Virus record (IMG/VR): IMGVR_UViG_3300010160_000221
Coordinates: 1 to 24,117 of that record
Origin: a virus
Length of the DNA stretch: 24,117 bases
Strand: one strand, 5' to 3'
Positions 1,867-16,502 of this stretch are shown piece by piece. The notes beneath the pieces are model-generated. The model was not told the DNA's origin and searched no databases. It worked only from the letters and a program-made list of their open reading frames with translations. A program made the position numbers and the translations under genes. Position 1 is the first letter of the stretch. Every line of letters starts with the position of its first letter.

Positions 1867-2047
1867 CTGAATGCTCCATTCTTTGCTTGAGGTCTGCAAT
1901 AAGGGCACATGCAGCTTCCAGACCTCTAATCTGACCGCATGTGTAGCGATACTCTTCAAAATTTGTACAGTTTCCTTGAGATAATGCTGTTTGGAGCATT
2001 CCTATGCGGTCTTTATACTCACTTAAAAGATAATCAATTTCACTCAT
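1859..2047 (-). CDS. Small conserved head-operon protein
   Basis: 62 residues, almost entirely predicted helical, with two cysteines and a central Tyr-Arg-Tyr-Thr-Cys-Gly-Gln-Ile-Arg-Gly-Leu stretch. I recognise this pattern from small proteins that follow the portal gene in many podoviruses; no function is known to me. The ATG overlaps the portal stop by four bases (ATGA), and the 3' end overlaps the GroES-like start by eight. This three-gene overlap indicates translational coupling. Confidence 0.82.
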   Translation of the reverse strand: MSEIDYLLSEYKDRIGMLQTALSQGNCTNFEEYRYTCGQIRGLEAACALIADLKQRMEHSDE

Positions 2048-4551
2048 TTATTGTCCTTGTTTGAAGGTTTCATTACATTTGCTAAAATCTGCTTATTGGT
2101 TAATCTATTTTTATTCTTAATATCATTAGAATGTTTAATTAAATCAACACCAAGCGTATTTTCACGGTCTTCTTTTCTCATCTTTAAGTCCATGACTTTT
2201 TCTGCCAAGTTAATACCTTGCGTCTTAATTGCCATTCTTTCTTGCGAAGCAATTCTTTCTTTCTCAATTGCCTGTTGCTGAACTCTGAGCATTGTGTCAG
2301 CCTCATCTTTCTTGGCCTTTCTCTGCAATTCAGCTTCTTTAATGGCTAGATCTTTTTGTTGCATTTGTACTATAGGATCTTGGGCTGCCTGTTGAGCTTG
2401 TTGTGCAGCCATTTCAGTCTTATTACGATTAAGCAACAGATCAGAAGCCTGTGCAGCCATTGCAGAAATCTTAACTTCCATTTCTCTAGGGATGCCTTCA
2501 TTGTCTTCTTCCTTATAGTCTGGCAACTGAACGCCCAATATATCTTCCATGTGTCTGCGATAGGCAAAGGCTAGGTGTTCATTAATATGTGCTAATGCTG
2601 CCGAATGAATTGCCTGTGCCTGTGGGTTTTGGGATAACATTTGCGCTATCTTTGGATCTTGAATAGCATTCATATGCACTTTAATATGTGCTTCATGGTC
2701 TTGATACATAAAAGCCTTAACAGGTTTCATGTTCATAATGTTCATGTTTTCTGTTATTGGATCGGCTGGCTTTCTGTCATCCGGCAACGGCACTAGCTTA
2801 TCCGCATTTTTGATGCCGAGAATATTAATCATCTGTCGGTGTAAGTACGGTAAGTTATATAACTGTGGCGCTGTTTGCGACAACTGAATCACTGCCTGAT
2901 ACTGCACAATCTTCTGTGACATAGTAGCGGCATTTGGATCGCTAACAGGGATAACGTCAATATCGTCATAATCCGATTTTTTAGCAAAACGAGTACCTTC
3001 TACTGGCTCGTAAGAATATTCAGGTGGCGTGTCTTCCTTAATAATATCCCGTAACAACTGTAACTCTTGCTTCATCGAGTAATGTACACGAGCCTGTACT
3101 GCGCTCATTACTTTTAATGTCCGTTCTAATATTGCCAGAGTCGTACCAACTGGGGTGTTAGCAGACATATCGGCAATTTTCATATCTGAAGCCGAGGCAA
3201 ACCTTCTACCTTCTTCTACAATATTACCGAGTAAGGTATATAAGACTTGACTTGGCTCTTTGTACGGCAAAGGTAGGATATTGTCTTTGAGTGCGCCACT
3301 TGGTACGTCTACATCCCTAAATTCCCCCGGACTTATGGGCGTGTCGTCACCTTTGATTCGCAATCCACGGGTTTTAAAGCCACCCGGCAAGTTGGATAGT
3401 GTGCCTGCGTCCACCAGTTGACGTATAAGGGAAGTACCAGACTTGGCAAAAGAGCCAACAAGATGAATAAGACCAAAACAGTAGAAACCAAAGCCCGGAA
3501 CATAGCCGTAATGGACGAAATGCTGCCTTTTAAGTTTTCTTTTATCATCGGGTTTCCAATTTCTACGAATTGCCAGAACATTACAGGTATTTTTTTCTAC
3601 AGTCACCACATATGGCAACGCTATACCTGTTAGTTCTCCGTCTTCGTCTTTATCTTCGTAACCTTCTAGGTCTAAGTTAACGTGAATTTCTAGAATCTTA
3701 AATCTATCGTCTTCTGTTGCAGAAAAACCCATCTTTTCGGCAATTTTCTTTTCTACTTCGTCATACGATTTAGTTGGAGCACCCAAATCAATGTCCAAAT
3801 AGAACCCAGCTACCTGTAATTTGCGTATTTCGTTCTCTGTCTTACGCATGACATGGGTAACTCGCTCAGAAGTTTCTAAACTACTAGCCCCGTAAGGCAC
3901 AATAATGTCTTCGGCTGGTACATACATTGAGACTTGGCGGTTTAAGCTTGGATCAAAATAGACTTTTTTAAACGCATTGCCAGAAAGTCCTAGTCCCCAA
4001 CACATTCTTTCGTGTTCTGGTCGGTATTCTGGCATTTTTTGCATGATCTGGTAGTTCATGTCCTGTTGAACACGCTCAGCTGCGTCCAGTTTTTCAGGAG
4101 TCTCCTTTCCGATTATCTGGGTTTTGACTGGTCCAGCTGGGGGCAGAGTCTCCATGACTGTTTCTGCTTGGAACTTGACAAGAGCTTCACTTAACAGTGG
4201 ATGGTAAACCCCACAAGCACCCTCCCAAGGCTCACTTCTTTCTTCAATTTTAAGACCTAACAGCTCTAAGCCATCTACATAAGTCTGAATCCAGTCCTTG
4301 CGAGAGGCAATGTCCATTTCAATATCACCCAAAAGCTCAGATGCTAAGGTCTGCATCACTGACTCATCCATATCTTCGGCTAAGTTTTTAGAAAACTCTT
4401 CGTCTTCTTCTCTTTTTAACTCAATCTCTAAGTCGCCAATGCCAATAGTTACCGCCTCTGGATCCTCAATTTCAATCTCAATATCAGGCTCTGACTCATT
4501 ATTTATGCCGGCTATTCCCTGTGGGGCTGCGTATAGTGCCTTATCTAACAT
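2044..4551 (-). CDS. Portal protein, P22-type
   Basis: 835 residues, longer than P22 portal (725). After an acidic Ile-Glu-rich N-terminal tail (about 22-48) comes the portal body. It has the motifs Arg-Ser-Glu-Pro-Trp-Glu-Gly-Ala-Cys-Gly-Val-Tyr-His-Pro-Leu-Leu (about 104-119), Trp-Gly-Leu-Gly-Leu-Ser-Gly-Asn-Ala-Phe-Lys-Lys and Val-Pro-Ala-Glu-Asp-Ile-Ile-Val-Pro. A later Leu-Val-Asp-Ala-Gly-Thr-Leu-Ser-Asn-Leu-Pro-Gly-Gly-Phe is the conserved stem/clip region of this family. The last 140 residues are Gln/Ala/Lys-rich and strongly coiled-coil, matching the long C-terminal barrel of P22-like portals. Twelve copies form the DNA channel and terminase dock. The start has AAGGAT upstream and lies nine bases after terL. 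Confidence 0.95.
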   Translation of the reverse strand: MLDKALYAAPQGIAGINNESEPDIEIEIEDPEAVTIGIGDLEIELKREEDEEFSKNLAEDMDESVMQTLASELLGDIEMDIASRKDWIQTYVDGLELLGLKIEERSEPWEGACGVYHPLLSEALVKFQAETVMETLPPAGPVKTQIIGKETPEKLDAAERVQQDMNYQIMQKMPEYRPEHERMCWGLGLSGNAFKKVYFDPSLNRQVSMYVPAEDIIVPYGASSLETSERVTHVMRKTENEIRKLQVAGFYLDIDLGAPTKSYDEVEKKIAEKMGFSATEDDRFKILEIHVNLDLEGYEDKDEDGELTGIALPYVVTVEKNTCNVLAIRRNWKPDDKRKLKRQHFVHYGYVPGFGFYCFGLIHLVGSFAKSGTSLIRQLVDAGTLSNLPGGFKTRGLRIKGDDTPISPGEFRDVDVPSGALKDNILPLPYKEPSQVLYTLLGNIVEEGRRFASASDMKIADMSANTPVGTTLAILERTLKVMSAVQARVHYSMKQELQLLRDIIKEDTPPEYSYEPVEGTRFAKKSDYDDIDVIPVSDPNAATMSQKIVQYQAVIQLSQTAPQLYNLPYLHRQMINILGIKNADKLVPLPDDRKPADPITENMNIMNMKPVKAFMYQDHEAHIKVHMNAIQDPKIAQMLSQNPQAQAIHSAALAHINEHLAFAYRRHMEDILGVQLPDYKEEDNEGIPREMEVKISAMAAQASDLLLNRNKTEMAAQQAQQAAQDPIVQMQQKDLAIKEAELQRKAKKDEADTMLRVQQQAIEKERIASQERMAIKTQGINLAEKVMDLKMRKEDRENTLGVDLIKHSNDIKNKNRLTNKQILANVMKPSNKDNK

Positions 4552-4560
4552 AATTTATCC

Positions 4561-6045
4561 TTAATAATATGCTGCTCTTTTGCGGTAAATCGGCTCATCG
4601 TCTTCATCACTGTCTAACTTAATAAACCCACCCCTTCTAAATCGCAATAAAGCCTGAGTTGTGCTATCAACCAAGTCATCGTGATCGGAGTTTGGAAACG
4701 CTGCCAATTCTTCAATTACCTCTTCTGCCCATCTAGTGGGTGGTGCCCATATCTTCCCACTAGCAAATAAATCTGCCACTGAATTAACACGGCTAATCTT
4801 ATCATTACCCCTTGTCGGTGTAAACTCTTGCACCGGTATTCCCATCCTTCTTAACTCAAATATCAATGGCGCACCGGACGCTTTTGCCTCTACTATACAC
4901 GCATCTGGCTGCCATTCTTTAAACATTTCAAACGCTTTAGTCTTTAACTCCGGAAATTCTAGCCGAGCTTTATAAGCATCTAACAAAATAATATTTGGGT
5001 TATTCCGGTCTTCATCCTTATAAAACACGCCCCAAGTTGTACATGCTGAATAGTCAGCCCGTTCTGATTTAGTAAAAGCGGTATCCCAGCTTTGGATAAT
5101 AAACTCACATGGCGGGGCTCTCTCATCCCAAACTTGCCACCATTCCCTTTTAACTAAAGCACCCTGCTCACTGGTTGGATCCTGCTGATACTGGGCTTGC
5201 CATTTAGATAAAGGTAACTCAATCCGTAACTTACTTAATTCCTCATAACTCCAGAACTGAGGCCATAATGGTTTCTCGTTCCTTTTAATCGCTGGCAGAC
5301 TAATAATCTCCCACTCATCACCATCCCTCTCGATGATGGCTTTCATAATCTTACCGGTTAAATCTCTCTTCGACCACCTTGTCATTACGATTACTATGCT
5401 TCCGCCCGGCTGCAATCGCTGTCTTGGTCCTGACGTATACCACTCATACACCTTATCAAAGACTGATGGATCACCAGCGGCTAACGCTGCTTCCTGTTCC
5501 GAATGAGGGTCGTCAATAATAAGTAAGTCAGCTCCTTTACCAGTAACAGTCCCGCCCACACCAATAGCAAAATACTCCCCATTAGCATTAGTGGACCAAC
5601 GACCAGCAGCCTTGCTATCAGACCGCAAACTGACATTGGGGAATACCTTACCATATCTATCTCCGTCAACTAAGTTCCTAACCTTCCTACCAAATCCTAC
5701 CGCCAGTTCTGCCGTGTTCGAACACTGGATAATCTTCTTATTCGGATACTTTCCTAAAAACCATGCCGGCAAAAGATAACTGGCAAACTCTGACTTCGTA
5801 TGTCTTGGTGGCATGTTAATAATCAACCGTTTTACCTTGCCACTGGCTATCTGTTCAAATTTTTTAGCCATTAACTCATGGTGATCGCCATGTATAAATT
5901 CCGGCCACATCGTCTTTACAAACTCCATAAAGTCCGATTCACCCTCTTCCCGCTGTAGAGATTGCTGATATGCCGTAGCTAAAGGACCAAGCGCATCCTG
6001 CTCCTCCTTCGGTAACAGCTTAATAATCTCTAACAGATCATCCAT
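4561..6045 (-). CDS. terL: Terminase large subunit (packaging ATPase and nuclease)
   Basis: 494 residues with both terminase domains. ATPase: a variant Walker A Met-Pro-Pro-Arg-His-Thr-Lys-Ser at 78-85, Walker B Leu-Leu-Ile-Ile-Asp-Asp-Pro at 174-180, coupling motif Met-Thr-Arg-Trp at 221-224. RNase H-like nuclease: Asp321 in Trp-Asp-Thr-Ala-Phe, Glu386 in Val-Glu-Ala-Lys, and the Asp pair in His-Asp-Asp-Leu-Val-Asp (455-460). The enzyme translocates DNA into the prohead through the portal and cuts the concatemer. The ATG overlaps the end of the upstream winged-helix gene by eight bases and lacks a clear Shine-Dalgarno of its own, so it is probably translated by coupling. Confidence 0.97.
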   Translation of the reverse strand: MDDLLEIIKLLPKEEQDALGPLATAYQQSLQREEGESDFMEFVKTMWPEFIHGDHHELMAKKFEQIASGKVKRLIINMPPRHTKSEFASYLLPAWFLGKYPNKKIIQCSNTAELAVGFGRKVRNLVDGDRYGKVFPNVSLRSDSKAAGRWSTNANGEYFAIGVGGTVTGKGADLLIIDDPHSEQEAALAAGDPSVFDKVYEWYTSGPRQRLQPGGSIVIVMTRWSKRDLTGKIMKAIIERDGDEWEIISLPAIKRNEKPLWPQFWSYEELSKLRIELPLSKWQAQYQQDPTSEQGALVKREWWQVWDERAPPCEFIIQSWDTAFTKSERADYSACTTWGVFYKDEDRNNPNIILLDAYKARLEFPELKTKAFEMFKEWQPDACIVEAKASGAPLIFELRRMGIPVQEFTPTRGNDKISRVNSVADLFASGKIWAPPTRWAEEVIEELAAFPNSDHDDLVDSTTQALLRFRRGGFIKLDSDEDDEPIYRKRAAYY

Positions 6046-7892: not shown

Positions 7893-8135
7893 ATGATCAA
7901 CGAACAAGACGCAATACAAGAGATTCGCAAACACGCTAACGCCAATTACAACAAGGGTTGGGATTACATCGTGGAATGTTGGGGTGATGGAGATATCCTA
8001 GAAGCTTTATCCGAGAACAAAATGGATCTTAGAAAAACAATCAAATACATTCAGGAGTCAGTCAATATGTATGTTCAGAAGCGTGAGGAACAACGAGCAG
8101 ATGTGTCAGACTGGGGAGAAGTTCCAAGCTTCTAG
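7893..8135 (+). CDS. Small protein, unknown function
   Basis: 80 residues, acidic and mostly helical, with Trp-Asp-Tyr-Ile-Val-Glu-Cys-Trp-Gly-Asp-Gly-Asp-Ile in the middle. Not assigned to a family. AAGGAG precedes the ATG. The last base of its TAG stop is the first base of stem I of the hammerhead ribozyme that follows, so self-cleavage would release its message with an intact stop codon and a 3' hairpin. Confidence 0.75.
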   Translation: MINEQDAIQEIRKHANANYNKGWDYIVECWGDGDILEALSENKMDLRKTIKYIQESVNMYVQKREEQRADVSDWGEVPSF

Positions 8136-8187
8136 GTAATCTGATGATGGGGTTAATCCCCGAAACATTCGAGAGGATGTCATTACC
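8135..8187 (+). ncRNA. Hammerhead ribozyme, type I (first of three)
   Basis: Stem I pairs 8135-8140 (GGTAAT) with 8182-8187 (ATTACC). Core CTGATGA is at 8141-8147. Stem II GGGG/CCCC (8149-8152 with 8158-8161) has loop TTAAT. GAAA is at 8162-8165. Stem III ACATTC/GGATGT (8165-8170 with 8175-8180, one G-U) has a GNRA loop GAGA. The cleavage triplet is GTC, cut after 8181. One extra T (8148) sits between the core and stem II, which is not canonical and may slow cleavage. Both open ends are in stem I, hence type I. Cleavage would leave a 26-nt leader with TGCTAGGAG before the ATG at 8208. Confidence 0.87.
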
Positions 8188-8207
8188 AACTCTGCTAGGA
8201 GAATTAA

Positions 8208-8483
8208 ATGTTACCAACTGATACAGGAAATTTAGTCACCATCAAGAAACACGGCAAGGGCAATACGAAATACTATGCCGTTTCTATCGCTTCACCAGTG
8301 ATCAATGAAGACAAGCAATACTTCTTTCGTGATTACACCAGTGCTTTCACTTATCGCAAGGATGGCGTTGCAAGCTTGACTTCGCAAGTAAAACACAACA
8401 GTCCTGAATTGCGCTTATCTGCGCCAATGTCAGAAGTCTCAAACAAGTCCGAATACAACGCTGATCATTTTAGGGGGATTTAA
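8208..8483 (+). CDS. Small basic protein, unknown function
   Basis: 91 residues, Lys/Ser/Thr-rich, with an N-terminal beta-like part (Leu-Val-Thr-Ile-Lys-Lys-His-Gly-Lys-Gly and Tyr-Tyr-Ala-Val-Ser-Ile). Not recognised. Its ribosome-binding site is the shared motif TGCTAGGAG (8193-8201), six bases before the ATG and just downstream of the first ribozyme's cut site. This site has the longest match (12 nt) to the small RNA near 18.2 kb, so it is the strongest candidate target. Confidence 0.75.
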   Translation: MLPTDTGNLVTIKKHGKGNTKYYAVSIASPVINEDKQYFFRDYTSAFTYRKDGVASLTSQVKHNSPELRLSAPMSEVSNKSEYNADHFRGI

Positions 8484-8484
8484 T

Positions 8485-8577
8485 ATGAAATTCTACGAAA
8501 TAGGAATGTTCTTCATCTGTGCCGTATTTATTGCCTTAATGATTGCACTATGTCTTGCAGTGGAGGGTGGACTATGA
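8485..8577 (+). CDS. Tiny single-span membrane protein
   Basis: 30 residues: a short polar start, then an uninterrupted hydrophobic helix (about 7-26, Met-Phe-Phe-Ile-Cys-Ala-Val-Phe-Ile-Ala-Leu) and an acidic Gly-rich end. GGGGG lies upstream of the ATG, two bases after the previous stop. The stop overlaps the next ATG (ATGA). Clean overlaps on both sides and the membrane helix support a real gene. A regulatory or lysis-related role is possible but not shown. Confidence 0.65.
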   Translation: MKFYEIGMFFICAVFIALMIALCLAVEGGL

Positions 8578-8741
8578 TTGCCGTTATCGTCAATACCAAC
8601 AGTCAGCGAGTAGCTGAACACCAGTGTCAATCTTGGGCGCAGTGTATGGAATGGATTGATTCTTACCTTACCTACAACGATCTCAAAAGGGCGTGTTCTG
8701 ATCATATTGCTCATGGTCAACACACTGTTTGGGTGCGCTAG
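8574..8741 (+). CDS. Small protein, unknown function
   Basis: 55 residues from the ATG that overlaps the previous stop by four bases and follows GGAGG. A longer reading from an earlier in-frame codon would lie inside the preceding gene and is less likely. Starts with a beta-like Met-Ile-Ala-Val-Ile-Val-Asn-Thr and contains Cys-Gln-Ser-Trp-Ala-Gln-Cys. The pattern suggests a small alpha/beta fold seen in phage hypothetical proteins; no function assigned. Confidence 0.7.
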   Translation: MIAVIVNTNSQRVAEHQCQSWAQCMEWIDSYLTYNDLKRACSDHIAHGQHTVWVR

Positions 8742-8848
8742 TGAAGTGGATTAATGCGTTCTACGATCTGTTACTGGTTGCCAGTATCGTGATCGTGCTT
8801 TATATAATTTTGGGTTCAATTTATCTTTACTTAGGAGGAAGTTTATGA
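8741..8848 (+). CDS. Tiny membrane protein, GTG start
   Basis: 35 residues, start GTG overlapping the TAG stop of the previous gene by one base. Its end overlaps the next ATG by four bases. A hydrophobic helix runs from about residue 7 to 32 (Leu-Leu-Leu-Val-Ala-Ser-Ile-Val-Ile-Val-Leu-Tyr-Ile-Ile-Leu). There is no Shine-Dalgarno, so translation would rely on coupling. It is the second tiny membrane protein within 300 bases. Confidence 0.58.
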   Translation: MKWINAFYDLLLVASIVIVLYIILGSIYLYLGGSL

Positions 8849-9030
8849 ATTACGCAGAACAAGAAATGATGGCAGTAATGCCTTACCCAGTAGAAAGCAA
8901 ATACTACAAAACAGTGATCATTCAATTGCGATCCGAATATGGTTACACCAAGTGGATGAATATCACGCCTGAACAATTTCGCAAGATTGATTTAATTTTA
9001 ACTGGAGAAGAATATGCTCAATACGCCTAA
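8845..9030 (+). CDS. Small protein, unknown function
   Basis: 61 residues with AGGAGG upstream of the ATG, a strong site. Contains Val-Ile-Ile-Gln-Leu-Arg-Ser-Glu-Tyr-Gly-Tyr-Thr-Lys-Trp-Met-Asn-Ile-Thr and ends acidic. Not recognised. Its 3' end overlaps the next gene by 17 bases. Confidence 0.72.
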   Translation: MNYAEQEMMAVMPYPVESKYYKTVIIQLRSEYGYTKWMNITPEQFRKIDLILTGEEYAQYA

Positions 9031-9205
9031 TCAAATAGAACACTTTCGTTTGCTTACACTGCGCCAAATGCTCAAGCTTGAGTTGCTAGGTATGAAGCGT
9101 AGTGGGCGATCAGCTTACGCCATCATCAAAGGTGAATTAGGTCTAAAGGGCAATAAGAAGTCCGTCTTTGATCAGCTATCGGAAATGTTGGGCAAGTCAA
9201 ACTGA
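9014..9205 (+). CDS. Small conserved phage protein, stop codon inside ribozyme
   Basis: 63 residues, basic and helical: Leu-Thr-Leu-Arg-Gln-Met-Leu-Lys-Leu-Glu, Arg-Ser-Gly-Arg-Ser-Ala-Tyr-Ala-Ile-Ile-Lys, then Leu-Gly-Leu-Lys-Gly-Asn-Lys-Lys. I recognise this pattern from small proteins of unknown function common in tailed phages; its basic character would allow nucleic-acid binding. GGAG precedes the ATG. The TGA stop at 9203-9205 is part of the CTGAAGA core of the second hammerhead ribozyme, and codons for its last residues form stem I. Confidence 0.78.
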   Translation: MLNTPNQIEHFRLLTLRQMLKLELLGMKRSGRSAYAIIKGELGLKGNKKSVFDQLSEMLGKSN

Positions 9206-9247
9206 AGAGTCTTTAATAGACGAAACTGGTGCGAACCAGTCTTTGAC
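9196..9247 (+). ncRNA. Hammerhead ribozyme, type I (second of three)
   Basis: Every conserved element is present. Stem I is GTCAAA/TTTGAC (9196-9201 with 9242-9247). The core CTGAAGA at 9202-9208 is consensus CUGANGA. Stem II is GTCT/AGAC (9209-9212 with 9218-9221), loop TTAAT. GAAA is at 9222-9225. Stem III is ACTGGT/ACCAGT (9225-9230 with 9235-9240), GNRA loop GCGA. The cleavage triplet is GTC, cut after 9241. The cut leaves a 25-nt leader before the ATG at 9267, carrying TGCTAGGAG. Stem III differs from that of the third ribozyme by a compensatory pair change, direct evidence for a conserved RNA fold. Confidence 0.94.
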
Positions 9248-9266
9248 AAACTGCTAGGAGTTAAAA

Positions 9267-9611
9267 ATGGAAACACAATTAGATTTGAATAGCTTTACTG
9301 GGACTGAGAGTTATTATAAGACTTGTTTGTTTGCACCGAAGCTAGTGCATACGGATGGCGTTCAATACTTTGCTGACCATGCAAGTGCCTACTGGTTCTT
9401 AGATATCGTTGCTACCGAGTATTTTAACGGCTTAGCTGACGATTTCTTGAGTATCAAACTGGTCGTTCACAGTGGTCGTGCAAACATTACTGTTGAGGAT
9501 GGTGATTGCAACATCATCAAGAGCCGAGAGATAGAGTTTACGGATTGCCCTGAGGGGATCTACAAATTCTTTTTGACCAACAATGTATTGATGTTGACTT
9601 CTGAATACTAA
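9267..9611 (+). CDS. Protein of unknown function
   Basis: 114 residues, acidic, aromatic-rich, with no transmembrane helix. Segments such as Tyr-Phe-Ala-Asp-His-Ala-Ser-Ala-Tyr-Trp-Phe-Leu-Asp-Ile-Val-Ala and Ile-Lys-Leu-Val-Val-His-Ser-Gly suggest an alpha/beta fold. Not recognised. The start is set by TGCTAGGAG at 9252-9260, six bases upstream and 11 nt after the second ribozyme's cut site. Eleven bases of this site are complementary to the small RNA near 18.2 kb. Confidence 0.77.
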   Translation: METQLDLNSFTGTESYYKTCLFAPKLVHTDGVQYFADHASAYWFLDIVATEYFNGLADDFLSIKLVVHSGRANITVEDGDCNIIKSREIEFTDCPEGIYKFFLTNNVLMLTSEY

Positions 9612-9612
9612 C

Positions 9613-9637
9613 AAAGGGAAAGGGGGAAACCCCTTTT
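9613..9637 (+). promoter_or_regulatory. GNRA-capped hairpin between ribosome-binding site and start codon
   Basis: AAAGGGG-GAAA-CCCCTTT (9619-9625, loop 9626-9629, 9630-9636) is a perfect 7-bp stem with a GAAA tetraloop, extendable by a G-U pair. The purine run AAAGGG at 9613-9618 lies just before it and the ATG at 9645 lies eight bases after. Looping out the hairpin would give the purine run normal Shine-Dalgarno spacing. A weak terminator is the alternative, but only four T follow. Confidence 0.6.
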
Positions 9638-9644
9638 AAAAATA

Positions 9645-9860
9645 ATGGACTTAGACGGCAAAAAAGGTTTGGTAAGGGACATATCCCAGTATGGCTATCA
9701 CGAACACAAAGGCTATGCTTGGGATGAATACGATGCCCAAGGCATTTTCTTAACAAGGGTTTGTGAAAGTTGTGTAGCAGAAAAATTAGCAGTTTATCGT
9801 CCTGAGATTCTTTCAGGATATTCCCAAGCTGATGTAGACGAACAGATCGAGGAGAATTAA
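9645..9860 (+). CDS. Small conserved phage protein with Cys pair
   Basis: 71 residues, acidic. The centre has Val-Cys-Glu-Ser-Cys-Val-Ala-Glu-Lys-Leu followed by Tyr-Arg-Pro-Glu-Ile-Leu, a pattern I know from small phage proteins of unknown function; the CxxC could bind zinc with a partner pair elsewhere. No Shine-Dalgarno lies at the usual distance. The hairpin at 9619-9636 appears to bridge an upstream purine run to this ATG. Confidence 0.76.
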   Translation: MDLDGKKGLVRDISQYGYHEHKGYAWDEYDAQGIFLTRVCESCVAEKLAVYRPEILSGYSQADVDEQIEEN

Positions 9861-9862
9861 TT

Positions 9863-10048
9863 ATGGGTAAATTTACACTGGAAATTAACACCGATAACGA
9901 TGCATTCAGTGGCGAAGATATGCACATTGAATTGCTAAAAAAATTAACAGATGTTGGTTATCGAGTAAGCGTATTGCGTGAGTTAAATGGGATCATTGTT
10001 GATTCCAATGGCAATACTGTTGGCGTTCATCAATTTTTTGGAGATTAA
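9863..10048 (+). CDS. Small acidic protein, unknown function
   Basis: 61 residues with GAGGAG upstream. Begins Met-Gly-Lys-Phe-Thr-Leu-Glu-Ile-Asn-Thr-Asp-Asn, a beta strand followed by an Asp-rich turn, then a helix with Leu-Leu-Lys-Lys-Leu and a second beta part Gly-Ile-Ile-Val-Asp-Ser-Asn-Gly-Asn-Thr-Val-Gly. A compact alpha/beta fold is likely. This kind of small protein is frequent in phage early regions; no function is known to me. Confidence 0.75.
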   Translation: MGKFTLEINTDNDAFSGEDMHIELLKKLTDVGYRVSVLRELNGIIVDSNGNTVGVHQFFGD

Positions 10049-10049
10049 C

Positions 10050-10310
10050 ATGGATATTAAATTTTTTGCAGATCCGGCACATGGTTGGGGTGAAGTGCCG
10101 ATTAGCCTGATTCAAGAATTGGGCATAGCTGACAAGATAAGCCAGTATTCCTACATGAAAGGGGATAAGGCATATCTTGAGGAAGACTGTGATCTATCAG
10201 TCCTTATGAACGCCTTAGAAGCGCAAGGGATTACTGCCAATTTTGTTGAAGTATGGACAAACAACGATAGCCCAGTGCGTAGGTATCAAAGCTTTAAATT
10301 ATCAAACTGA
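10050..10310 (+). CDS. Conserved phage protein, stop codon inside ribozyme
   Basis: 86 residues from the ATG with GGAG seven bases upstream. An in-frame earlier start would lie inside the previous gene and lacks a ribosome-binding site. Conserved-looking core: Phe-Phe-Ala-Asp-Pro-Ala-His-Gly-Trp-Gly-Glu-Val-Pro, Tyr-Leu-Glu-Glu-Asp-Cys-Asp-Leu, and Arg-Arg-Tyr-Gln-Ser-Phe near the end. I recognise it as a recurring hypothetical protein of phages. Its TGA stop (10308-10310) is part of the CTGATGA core of the third ribozyme. Confidence 0.8.
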   Translation: MDIKFFADPAHGWGEVPISLIQELGIADKISQYSYMKGDKAYLEEDCDLSVLMNALEAQGITANFVEVWTNNDSPVRRYQSFKLSN

Positions 10311-10351
10311 TGAGCCTGTAAGGGCGAAACTGGCGTGAGCCAGTCTTTGAT
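10301..10351 (+). ncRNA. Hammerhead ribozyme, type I (third of three)
   Basis: Fully canonical. Stem I is ATCAAA/TTTGAT (10301-10306 with 10346-10351). Core CTGATGA is at 10307-10313. Stem II is GCCT/GGGC (10314-10317 with 10322-10325, closing G-U), GNRA loop GTAA. GAAA is at 10326-10329. Stem III is ACTGGC/GCCAGT (10329-10334 with 10339-10344), GNRA loop GTGA. The GTC triplet is cut after 10345. Leader left on the downstream message: 28 nt with TGCTAGGAG before the ATG at 10374. Compared with the second ribozyme, stem I and stem III carry paired substitutions that keep both helices. Confidence 0.96.
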
Positions 10352-10373
10352 TAACTTGCTAGGAGAATTTATT

Positions 10374-10904: not shown

Positions 10905-11188
10905 ATATTTGCGAAGATGGTTATTCAGGTAATCACGATCCGTTCTTTCAAGAAATATCAGATGATTACGATGAAATTCAAATGAATCCCGATACTCTTG
11001 ACGATGGTTCAGTGGTGGTTAATTTCGATGTTTACGACAAAGAAAATAACGAAGTAATCAAGACTGGTGGATATGTTCTCATTCGCAAGGAAGAGGATCT
11101 GAAAGATTTTTACATTTGTGTATTTAACAAAGATGGTGATCAAATGTCTCAAACCCGATTGCCGTTTGACTGGTTAAGTCTTGACTAG
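10901..11188 (+). CDS. Acidic protein, unknown function
   Basis: 95 residues, strongly acidic, with an Asp/Glu-rich first half and a beta-rich second half (Gly-Gly-Tyr-Val-Leu-Ile-Arg, Phe-Tyr-Ile-Cys-Val-Phe-Asn). The ATG overlaps the previous stop by four bases, and the GGAGG inside the end of the Api92-like gene serves as its site. Not recognised. Confidence 0.75.
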   Translation: MNICEDGYSGNHDPFFQEISDDYDEIQMNPDTLDDGSVVVNFDVYDKENNEVIKTGGYVLIRKEEDLKDFYICVFNKDGDQMSQTRLPFDWLSLD

Positions 11189-11192
11189 TGCA

Positions 11193-11226
11193 GTAATCCT
11201 GATGCCCAGTTGGGCATTGGGATTGC
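11193..11226 (+). other. 16-bp RNA hairpin at a gene junction
   Basis: 11193-11208 pairs with 11211-11226 over 16 positions, three of them G-U, apart from the tight turn at the tip. It lies in the 73-bp gap between two genes and is followed by TGCTAGGAG (11247-11255). It takes the same place as the three ribozymes but has no GAAA and no closing stem I. No T run follows, so it is not a typical terminator. An RNase III site or a message-stabilising hairpin is possible. Confidence 0.75.
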
Positions 11227-11261
11227 CATTGGGGTGATCATATAACTGCTAGGAGATTAGT

Positions 11262-11573
11262 ATGGATTTTCAAAGAAATTTAAAGTGTGGCGAGTATATT
11301 CTGATGGGTTGTGGCACAGATTCCAACGGCAAAAGAGATCAAATTTCGACCTTATGTTATTGGCAAGACAATCCTGAAAGAGCCAAAAAACATATGCATT
11401 CGATTTGGGAAAAAAATAAAGGCGATGTGTATTATCTGTTAAGGGTTGAACGAGTAGTATGTTCGGGCAGTTACCCGATGGTTATTGATCTTCCCAAGCC
11501 TGTTGAAAGGGTAAATTTAACACTGGAAAAAGCTGAAGGCGATGACTGGAATGTTTACCAAGGGGAAGAGTAA
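11262..11573 (+). CDS. Protein of unknown function
   Basis: 103 residues, starting six bases after TGCTAGGAG. Segments Glu-Tyr-Ile-Leu-Met-Gly-Cys-Gly-Thr-Asp-Ser and Asp-Val-Tyr-Tyr-Leu-Leu-Arg-Val-Glu-Arg-Val-Val suggest a small beta-rich domain. Not assigned. It is the fourth rightward gene with the shared ribosome-binding motif, here preceded by a plain hairpin instead of a ribozyme. Its TAA shares its last base with the next ATG. Confidence 0.76.
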   Translation: MDFQRNLKCGEYILMGCGTDSNGKRDQISTLCYWQDNPERAKKHMHSIWEKNKGDVYYLLRVERVVCSGSYPMVIDLPKPVERVNLTLEKAEGDDWNVYQGEE

Positions 11574-13821: not shown

Positions 13822-13975
13822 AGTAGTATTTTATTTAACACGCAAAGTGATGGTAACAGTGGATGTGCCTAATGGCGAAGATCCGGTTGAGTATGCTTGG
13901 GATGAAGTGGAGTTTGCGCCAAACGAAGAAGTGGTTGACTCTGATGTTTGTGAGGTAGATCCTAATGAATCTTAA
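13808..13975 (+). CDS. Small acidic protein, unknown function
   Basis: 55 residues, strongly acidic after a beta-like start (Tyr-Glu-Val-Val-Phe-Tyr-Leu-Thr-Arg-Lys-Val-Met-Val-Thr-Val). The ATG overlaps the previous gene by 14 bases and its Shine-Dalgarno is poor, but the frame fills the gap exactly and overlaps the next start by 11 bases. Possibly a small single-domain protein of the beta-grasp size range; no assignment. Confidence 0.62.
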   Translation: MKRYEVVFYLTRKVMVTVDVPNGEDPVEYAWDEVEFAPNEEVVDSDVCEVDPNES

Positions 13976-14246: not shown

Positions 14247-15021
14247 AATTGCCGACTCTTCTATGATAATCATTGAAATCTTCCCCGACTGTTTCGGAGA
14301 GCCAATACGGTTTGCCTGTTTCTTTGGCAGTAGTTTCTCCGACACCGTTGGGGTCATTATCAGCAACAATGATCCCTTGCCCGATGTTCCCCGATACGAA
14401 CTTCATATTACTTGCACTAAAGCACACATAGATTGTGTAAGGAATATTAGTTTGACTCATGGACTGCCGAATAGACAATCCAGTAGCATACCCCTCGCAA
14501 AGTATGGAAGTCCCTTTTGTGCCGATAACAAAGGTTGCGCCTTTGCTTGTTTGTCCATAGAGGAACTTTTTACCCCCCTCGTCATTTATGAGTTGGCATC
14601 CTACCAGTCTGCCATCAATGCGCATGGGAATTACTAAAGTTTTAGTATCACCATCTATTAATACATTCCCTTCTTCGTTGACGAAGCCTTTTTTAATCAA
14701 ATAGGAATGCGTATCAAGGTAAGTCTGTGATAGCAAGTCTTCAGCTTTTTTGGCAGCCTTTTGCGCTTCGTCATTCCTTTTTTGCATAGACTCTTTGATA
14801 CGGCTTCTTACTTCTGTTGACGAAGACTCACCATTGGAAAACCAAGTGACTGGTTTCTCCATCGTTGCCCAGTTTTGAACCCATCCCACATTACCTAGAA
14901 ACTTATACCTACCGTTTCTCGATCTTGGGTGGTCTTCTGTTGGTGTTGCTACCCATTTGTCATAGACAAGACTGCTCATTATTAAGCCATGTTGTCTTGC
15001 AAATTCTTCAAATATCATCAT
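14197..15021 (-). CDS. Toprim-domain primase-like protein
   Basis: 274 residues. Toprim signature: Leu-Cys-Glu-Gly-Tyr-Ala-Thr-Gly-Leu-Ser (174-183, catalytic Glu176), Ile-Ile-Val-Ala-Asp-Asn-Asp (217-223, Asp221 and Asp223), and Gly-Glu-Asp-Phe-Asn-Asp (247-252). This metal-binding fold makes primers in phage primases. The N-terminal zinc ribbon of full primases is missing, but the preceding helicase carries a zinc finger. The ATG overlaps the helicase stop by four bases, so the two are co-translated and probably work together at the fork. It converges on the sigma-like gene with a 50-base overlap. A Toprim nuclease is the alternative. Confidence 0.85.
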   Translation of the reverse strand: MMIFEEFARQHGLIMSSLVYDKWVATPTEDHPRSRNGRYKFLGNVGWVQNWATMEKPVTWFSNGESSSTEVRSRIKESMQKRNDEAQKAAKKAEDLLSQTYLDTHSYLIKKGFVNEEGNVLIDGDTKTLVIPMRIDGRLVGCQLINDEGGKKFLYGQTSKGATFVIGTKGTSILCEGYATGLSIRQSMSQTNIPYTIYVCFSASNMKFVSGNIGQGIIVADNDPNGVGETTAKETGKPYWLSETVGEDFNDYHRRVGNFKASQSLKKLLLSLKT

Positions 15022-16502
15022 CTTTTCCCCATTTTGTTTTGGCGTTTACTCCATATAATGTTTCTGTGCTTAATCCATTTTTGAGTAGCTTCAGAAGGTA
15101 TCTTTGTTATCTCTCGCAGTCCACGAGGCCATACACCAAACCTATCTCGATACTTGTTACTTGCCCAATATAGGTTGTATTCCTTTTGTTTGGCTATGTG
15201 CAATAACTCTGAATAGAACTCTTGTTTGATTTCTTTTGGGACTTTGTTGTCAAAGCCAAGCTCGATCAGCTCACCTTCAACGGCTTCTATCTGCTTTCTT
15301 TGTTTGACATAGCCACAGATTACACAAGAAAGACTATTCCTTGCCCATAGAGCAGAGCATTTTGGGCATTTTGACTCGGCTTTGATAGTTTCTGACGGCT
15401 CTTTCTTTGCTTTTTCAATATGTTCATCAAGAGTTTTAACACCATTAGCAAATATTTCTTCCCATTCTTCCCTGAATCGTAGGTAATTGCCTGAATGATC
15501 GAGCCACAAAGCATATTCTTTTGTCGGATAGCTACGCATAACTCTGCCTAATTGTTGTATATGACTTGACAAAGACTTGGCAAATGGACGAGCCGACACT
15601 CCTATCATTACATCGGGAACATCAAACCCCCTTGTCAGAATGTCAGTAGCAATTAAGCCATGAATTTCTGTATCAGGCTTTGAAAAATCCTCGATTACTT
15701 CTTGCTTGTATTCAGAGTTATCCAAGTAGGATATGCTAATAAAGTTATAGCCTTTCCTTGCAAACTGTTCTACCAAGTCCTGTCCATGCGCTACTCCGGC
15801 ACAGAAAACAATCGTCTTTCTTGGTCTCCCGAAGATTTCATGGGTTTTTTTCTCCCATTCAGCCACAATATCACCAGTAATCTTCATGCCACGCTCAGTT
15901 ACTTGGTCAGGACTCCACTCTCCAGCCACCTTTTTAACACCTGTCATGTCTATTTCTTTTGAAATGAACACTCGTAGTGGCGCTAACCAGTTGCCGTTGA
16001 CCAAGCTTTCCGTTGTTGCACCACAAACCACATTCGAATAGATGTTACCCAAACCCTTGGTAAATGGTGTTGCAGTCAGCCCGATTACTTTAATCTTTTC
16101 ATTGGCTTTAATGATATTTGTTATCTGTTGACGAGTAATGTGGCATTCATCAACAATCAATAAATCAATGTCAGGAAAGTTTTGCCGCCTTTCCAGTGTT
16201 TGCGAAGAGCAAATTTGTATCTTTTTGGTAATATCTTTCTTGTAATGGTCAGCCTGTAGTACCCCATGATCTAAGTTATATTTCGTTAGACGAAGACTTG
16301 TTTGATCAATCAGGACAATACGGTCTAGGATCATCGCAGAACGCTTGTATTTGTCTGAAGTAGCCTTCATCAGGTAAATGGCCACCTCTGTCTTGCCAAA
16401 GCCTGTAGGAGCGTATAGCAACTGTGTTCTATGCCCATCCTTAAACCCTTGGCGCAATGCATCAACTACACCGATTTGGTGTTCACGCAATTCTAGTTCC
16501 AT
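15018..16502 (-). CDS. SF2 DEAD/DEAH-type helicase with C-terminal zinc finger
   Basis: 494 residues. Motif I Ala-Pro-Thr-Gly-Phe-Gly-Lys-Thr (31-38), motif II Asp-Glu-Cys-His (118-121), motif III Thr-Ala-Thr (143-145), motif VI Gln-Gln-Leu-Gly-Arg-Val-Met-Arg (316-323). The layout is that of the type III restriction/UvsW-like SF2 helicases. A zinc finger follows: Cys379, Cys382, Cys393, Cys396. Such phage helicases remodel forks or D-loops using ATP. It sits between the ParB-like gene (three bases away) and the Toprim gene (overlapping). The GroES, RusA and DnaB-like neighbours fit a self-contained replication and recombination set. Confidence 0.93.
   Translation of the reverse strand: MELELREHQIGVVDALRQGFKDGHRTQLLYAPTGFGKTEVAIYLMKATSDKYKRSAMILDRIVLIDQTSLRLTKYNLDHGVLQADHYKKDITKKIQICSSQTLERRQNFPDIDLLIVDECHITRQQITNIIKANEKIKVIGLTATPFTKGLGNIYSNVVCGATTESLVNGNWLAPLRVFISKEIDMTGVKKVAGEWSPDQVTERGMKITGDIVAEWEKKTHEIFGRPRKTIVFCAGVAHGQDLVEQFARKGYNFISISYLDNSEYKQEVIEDFSKPDTEIHGLIATDILTRGFDVPDVMIGVSARPFAKSLSSHIQQLGRVMRSYPTKEYALWLDHSGNYLRFREEWEEIFANGVKTLDEHIEKAKKEPSETIKAESKCPKCSALWARNSLSCVICGYVKQRKQIEAVEGELIELGFDNKVPKEIKQEFYSELLHIAKQKEYNLYWASNKYRDRFGVWPRGLREITKIPSEATQKWIKHRNIIWSKRQNKMGKR

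Follow-up and report, generated by a model that had tools for sequence, protein, structure and literature searches.

What hammerhead ribozymes do in bacteria and their phages is a long-standing question, and a 2017 review still describes their prokaryotic role as open and their association with phages as persistent (PMC6155905). The question is raised again by a phage contig of 24,117 nucleotides (IMG/VR record IMGVR_UViG_3300010160_000221, positions 1 to 24,117; hereafter the window), in which an earlier reading made from the letters alone (the sequence-only reading) had placed three type I hammerheads, here called HH1, HH2 and HH3, at gene junctions of one operon. The analysis reported here indicates that HH1–HH3 are probably genuine type I hammerheads which cut the polycistronic operon transcript after C8181, C9241 and C10345, the same sites that had been proposed earlier. 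The case is built on sequence, structure, covariation, core conservation, orientation and position, and extends from there, by inference, to cleavage, the chemistry of the ends, a tertiary contact and the benefit to the phage.

When both strands of the window are searched with our own scanner, exactly HH1, HH2 and HH3 are returned; the same scanner gives 2 matches in 300 dinucleotide-shuffled windows, i.e., a chance level of 0.007 per window. The three elements lie in the operon sense where the sequence-only reading had put them, with their parts in the order that it gave and with stem III caps that are all GNRA, as it had noted (Table 1). Stem I is open and stems II and III are capped, which is the type I layout, and the core C3U4G5A6-N7-G8A9, G12A13A14, the A15.1-U16.1 pair and H17 are present in all three. 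All three are complete, as described earlier, but HH1 is not perfectly canonical, as it carries an unpaired U (U8148) between A9 and stem II that had been overlooked. The inserted U recurs in 21 of 130 distinct relatives, so that in HH1 it represents an inherited subclass and not a sequencing slip; a single U at this place is seen in L019, L031, L035, L081, L092, L102, L106, L160, L161, L166 and L222 as well, and GG nearly always comes next. Folded in isolation, HH1 and HH2 have the hammerhead as their lowest-energy structure.

Table 1. Positions of the ribozymes, stop codons, predicted leaders and other features in the window. Sequences are given in the order stem I/core/stem II/GAA/stem III/C17/stem I; HH1–HH3 are type I hammerheads found by our own scanner.
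Feature	Position	Strand	Description	Sequence
HH1	8135–8187	+	stem I 8135–8140/8182–8187; core CUGAUGA 8141–8147; inserted U 8148; stem II 8149–8161; GAA 8162–8164; stem III 8165–8180, GAGA cap; predicted cleavage after C8181	GGTAAT CTGATGA T-GGGGTTAATCCCC GAA ACATTCGAGAGGATGT C ATTACC
HH2	9196–9247	+	stem I 9196–9201/9242–9247; core CUGAAGA 9202–9208; stem II 9209–9221; GAA 9222–9224; stem III 9225–9240, GCGA cap; predicted cleavage after C9241	GTCAAA CTGAAGA GTCTTTAATAGAC GAA ACTGGTGCGAACCAGT C TTTGAC
HH3	10301–10351	+	stem I 10301–10306/10346–10351; core CUGAUGA 10307–10313; stem II 10314–10325; GAA 10326–10328; stem III 10329–10344, GUGA cap; predicted cleavage after C10345	ATCAAA CTGATGA GCCTGTAAGGGC GAA ACTGGCGTGAGCCAGT C TTTGAT
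Stop at HH1	8133–8135	+	UAG of gene 7893–8135	
Stop at HH2	9203–9205	+	UGA of gene 9014–9205; equals core U4-G5-A6	
Stop at HH3	10308–10310	+	UGA of gene 10050–10310; equals core U4-G5-A6	
HH1 leader	8182–8207	+	predicted 26-nt 5'-OH leader; CTAGGAG 8195–8201; ATG 8208	
HH2 leader	9242–9266	+	predicted 25-nt 5'-OH leader; CTAGGAG 9254–9260; ATG 9267 (DUF6876 gene)	
HH3 leader	10346–10373	+	predicted 28-nt 5'-OH leader; CTAGGAG 10359–10365; ATG 10374 (gene with DUF1281_C domain)	
Motif B	11176–11255	+	non-hammerhead two-hairpin element before the leader of gene 11262–11573	AACTGCTAGGAG (leader)
Portal	2044–4551			
Large terminase	4561–6045			
Helicase	15018–16502			

The proposed check against Rfam gives a mixed answer. 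The Hammerhead_1 model (RF00163), with which the window elements share the core, the three-helix layout and a stem I of 6 base pairs (bp), recognizes HH2 from end to end with 28.2 bits and HH3 weakly with 23.4 bits, both under the gathering cut-off of 34, which is a detection rule and not a biochemical definition. HH1 has no Rfam match, and at the cut-off RF00163 finds nothing in 20 contigs of relatives, at least 14 of which carry elements. A covariance model built from an alignment of 56 diverse elements, R1, scores HH1 at 63.8 bits (E = 1.5e-13, HH1 being in the training set), HH2 at 75.4 bits and HH3 at 62.4 bits, and recovers the published hammerhead of phage PaP3 that was tested in vitro (E = 8e-6); R1 is a model that detects elements below the cut-off of Rfam.

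In the alignment of 56 elements, 14 of the 16 stem pairs are variable and all 14 are changed on both sides, paired cells amount to 99.3% vs. 65% after shuffling, and the covariation score is 0.823, vs. at most 0.115 when the alignment is slid. Since the scanner used for selection demanded at least 4, 3 and 4 pairs in stems I, II and III, respectively, the unbiased evidence lies in the pairs beyond these minima, and these are equally well kept. Loss of the stems in related phages without compensation had been named in advance as the observation that would speak against the ribozymes; the opposite is seen, with compensatory changes in all variable pairs. When the stems are fixed and up to 2 core letters are left free, the exact core is kept in 73 of 76 distinct elements (70 with a perfect core and three with the same core and a U insertion, read in another register). 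The variants, all in otherwise intact elements, are U4C in L180 (3925–3983) and L200 (2415–2473) and the compensatory pair C3U/G8A in L015 (782–842, minus strand), the latter being a natural C3-G8 covariation reported to be active (PMC3088659). Variable stems around a fixed core are predicted by selection for cleavage and not by a plain hairpin role.

In one element each of L002, L081, L094, L129 and L144, stem III is long and contains a symmetric internal loop formed by two copies of about TGAGTCCGCAAA; at the equivalent sites of other phages it is short. The loop could be a protein or ligand site; the idea of an aptamer family was rejected, as 54 contigs fit the pattern, most of them by chance according to a rough estimate.

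Stem I measures exactly 6 bp in 125 of 127 distinct elements; next to it, two bases oppose each other as A-A (105), U-U (13), A-C (4) or C-U (3). The first base after stem I is matched to the last base of loop II as A-U in 94 cases, U-A in 16, C-G in 4 and otherwise in 16 (12 of these exceptions being A with G), with a mutual information of 0.53 bits, 37 standard deviations over shuffles. The pattern persists when the data are collapsed to 66 distinct combinations (42 A-U, 10 U-A, 4 C-G). The same covarying network takes in the base that precedes stem I and the initial base of loop II; bases further out have little share in it. This covariation, taken without correction for ancestry, points to a predicted tertiary pair of the first base downstream of stem I with the final loop II base, in which the 3' flank would do the work of a stem I loop; the loop or bulge of stem I that reaches loop II in a full-length hammerhead is missing here, and so is an outer helix.

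The published structures have a single contact in common, in which an A of loop II forms a Hoogsteen pair with a U from the part of stem I that is not helical (PMC2553840). As in the Schistosoma mansoni Sm-alpha and sTRSV ribozymes (PMC2553840), a loop II base would here touch a base on the stem I side that lies outside the helix; unlike in those, stem I lacks an outer helix and any loop, closed or internal, and two further covarying pair types (A-U and C-G) occur. The U-A subclass, which includes HH3 (U after stem I, GUAA as loop II), is compatible with the published Hoogsteen pair, whose place would be taken by A-U or C-G in the other two subclasses. The phage hammerheads of PMC3088659, as described in the text of that paper, make their contacts via a stem I loop, a bulge or a pseudoknot, and differ in this from an open 6-bp stem I with a mismatch at its end and a 3' flank that covaries with loop II. 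The covariation predicts a new form of loop II contact, which is open to a base-swap test.

The predicted device is found again in dozens of other phages, both related and unrelated, and is overlooked there by standard annotation. Contigs were fetched by protein queries with the terminase, the DUF6876 gene after HH2 and the gene after HH3, so that the sets are not selected for hammerheads. A DNA pattern scan finds 76 contigs with the hammerhead pattern, and the search of related genomes suggested by the sequence-only reading yields R1 matches that are all in the gene sense: 29 in the window plus the terminase set and 106 in the DUF6876 set, 135 in total (3 of them in the window), each with E < 1e-6 and none borderline. 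Relatives in the terminase set carry the elements on the strand opposite to the terminase and the window on the plus strand, which in both cases is the operon sense. Among virus records searched whole, 21 of 26 contain one to three elements; many contigs have a single copy and several have two to four, the maximum being four (L045).

Among cultured phages, the element is carried by the Flavobacterium elemo phages (blastn gives nine records, of which two were checked with R1), where the question of function becomes accessible, and by Pelagibacter phage Jormungand. The cultured terminase relatives 023Pt_psg01, DSL-LC04 and HTVC027P have no element in the genome parts scanned, the search for DUF6876 in named phages gave no match, and the only operon relative at the DNA level in named phages is a 46-base match; no hammerhead underlies the partial blastn matches in Streptomyces phage R4 and in Klebsiella phage KLPN1. 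In Flavobacterium phage elemoA_7-9A (L314, 11964–12071) a deposited hypothetical protein overlies the hammerhead on the opposite strand and is probably a spurious call. The hammerhead of Jormungand (L315, 14995–15064; record positions 38216–38285) has MarR-family and integrase genes in its vicinity and two ArdA genes on its upstream side, an arrangement that recalls the ardA/marR/integrase locus of A. tumefaciens (PMC3088659).

In the window, the cuts are predicted 25–28 nt before the next ATG, as first proposed, and over 95 elements the distance is 26 nt (interquartile range 25–27). The claim that each cut is tied to the same ribosome-binding motif stands in part: CTAGGAG follows all three hammerheads, and does so in close relatives, but it is the general leader motif of the family, found at junctions without a hammerhead too, and other phages have other leaders. 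There is no fixed partner gene, as the downstream genes fall into 78 clusters, the largest of which (DUF6876) has 12 members, and the segments between the hammerheads of the window are blocks of about 1 kb with 4–5 genes each and not single genes.

Hammerhead cleavage leaves a 5'-OH and a 2',3'-cyclic phosphate, and such ends would be expected to slow decay by the 5'-monophosphate-dependent RNase E and by 3' exonucleases. According to the mechanism proposed here, each ribozyme would fold fast at cellular magnesium by means of the tertiary pair that links loop II to the 3' flank of the 6-bp stem I, and each cut would separate a block of about 1 kb containing 4–5 small genes. The upstream piece would end just past its stop codon with the stem II and stem III hairpins and a 2',3'-cyclic phosphate, while the downstream piece would start with a 5'-OH and a short fixed leader of 25–28 nt that includes the ribosome-binding site. 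The likely benefit is that ends ill-suited to 5'-monophosphate-sensing and 3'-exonuclease decay would give blocks differing in lifetime and expression.

Several observations weigh against this interpretation. HH3 alone has a competing hairpin, and not the hammerhead, as its lowest-energy fold; HH1 has its insertion right beside the catalytic A9; and the covariation counts were made without correction for shared ancestry. The hammerhead is absent from the DUF6876 junction of many relatives, which carry there either another element, motif B (see below), or neither; this indicates that cleavage is dispensable at a given junction. Finally, the notion that cleavage frees the ribosome-binding site was rejected, since the mean predicted unpaired probability is essentially unchanged (from 0.464 to 0.483 over 100 elements), and a direct translational effect is not claimed.

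The stop codons of the upstream genes add a further possibility, which extends the proposed processing and does not oppose it. With the stop inside the ribozyme, a terminating ribosome would keep the ribozyme unfolded, so that cutting would occur only once upstream translation has stopped or thinned, and operon processing would be coupled to translation. Of the 75 distinct elements taken from the window and the contigs that were fetched independently, 72 are preceded by an open frame of 45 codons or more with its stop close by. The UGA stop coincides with the core U4-G5-A6 in 29 of the 72, as at HH2 and HH3; in 14 the stop starts 8 bases before C3, as at HH1, where the UAG supplies both the conserved unpaired A that precedes stem I and, with its G, the first base of that stem; altogether 53 stops lie between –9 and +1 relative to C3. 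On the other hand, compact genomes place stops at junctions anyway, CUGANGA necessarily contains UGA, and the remaining 19 genes stop elsewhere. Attractive as such gating by the stop codon may be, on the present sequence evidence it is to be regarded as a minority possibility.

Motif B, which has no hammerhead core, bears on a more modest role for the hairpins. Compensatory changes are found in both of its hairpins, a model of it detects copies in two sets (75 and 23), and those in the DUF6876-oriented set are all on the gene strand; it is seen in many relatives, e.g., L166 (3917–3994), L202 (3634–3711) and L018. As a known RNA it was rejected, with no Rfam match at E up to 5 for sites in five contigs. 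At the DUF6876 junction of near-identical phages, hammerhead and motif B replace each other (L164/L168 vs. L166/L209) and AACTGCTAGGAG follows both, an exchange which suggests a shared job, such as providing defined or protected mRNA ends. Both elements might then be structural punctuation only, i.e., stable leader hairpins or 3' protectors in which cleavage is incidental. This is unlikely, because hairpins need neither an invariant core, kept in 73 of 76 elements, nor the A15.1-U16.1 pair, C17, the 6-bp limit of stem I and the covariation of loop II with the flank. It is also doubtful, if worth stating, that the stop-codon-bearing hammerhead cuts operon mRNA under the control of translation and that motif B is, at the same time, a second mRNA-processing element, possibly self-cleaving too.

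Two other explanations fare worse. Pairs of ribozymes could excise and circularize the intervening RNA, or be mobile elements like retrozymes, in line with the copies spaced in tandem at 1.06 and 1.10 kb in the window and with the two to four copies of several contigs; this is very improbable, as a single copy is all that many contigs have, the intervening segments consist of normal protein-coding genes, and circles were looked for in similar arrays and none found (PMC3088659). That the elements are chance resemblances or decayed relics, as the scores under the Rfam cut-off and the insertion in HH1 might suggest, is scarcely credible in view of the low chance expectation, the compensatory changes throughout and the recurrence in many contigs, and for the class it is already refuted by the comparative data.

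With operon mRNA processing as the preferred interpretation, the relation to known systems can be defined. Clusters of type I, II and III hammerheads around prophage genes, for which mRNA processing was proposed, are described in Perreault et al. (2011; PMC3088659), with the triple array at A. tumefaciens ardA, PaP3 and Bcep176 as examples; tandem phage hammerheads from other species and phages cleave in vitro and in E. coli (PMC3088659). The elements described here are like those arrays in being of the same class, intergenic, tandem and in sense around phage genes, with three in the window and up to four per contig, all in the gene sense, and R1 recognizes one of their members. The dedicated mRNA-processing scheme of the sequence-only reading is backed by comparative evidence as regards sense orientation, gene junctions and cuts just upstream of ribosome-binding sites, but the mRNA-processing idea had already been published. 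Unlike in those arrays, as described in the text of the paper, a stop codon and a fixed leader are built in here. The theta ribozymes of gut phages (PMC10879173) are another case of phages processing their own transcripts by self-cleaving ribozymes, but they have a hepatitis delta virus-like fold and are located at the 3' ends of tRNAs and not at the gene junctions of an mRNA.

No published description of the architecture of stop codon, ribozyme and leader was found in a search of the openly accessible literature, and the supplementary alignments of the 2011 paper possibly hold such elements. Apparently new are the 6-bp stem I, the covariation of the 3' flank with loop II, the stop codon in the core and the 26-nt leader, which together make a recurrent, standardized unit across many phages. 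As a minor observation, a small protein encoded at 13965–14246 matches sigma factor profiles of RNA polymerase at their end (phrog_351, E = 2.6e-6) and might direct the transcription of phage operons.

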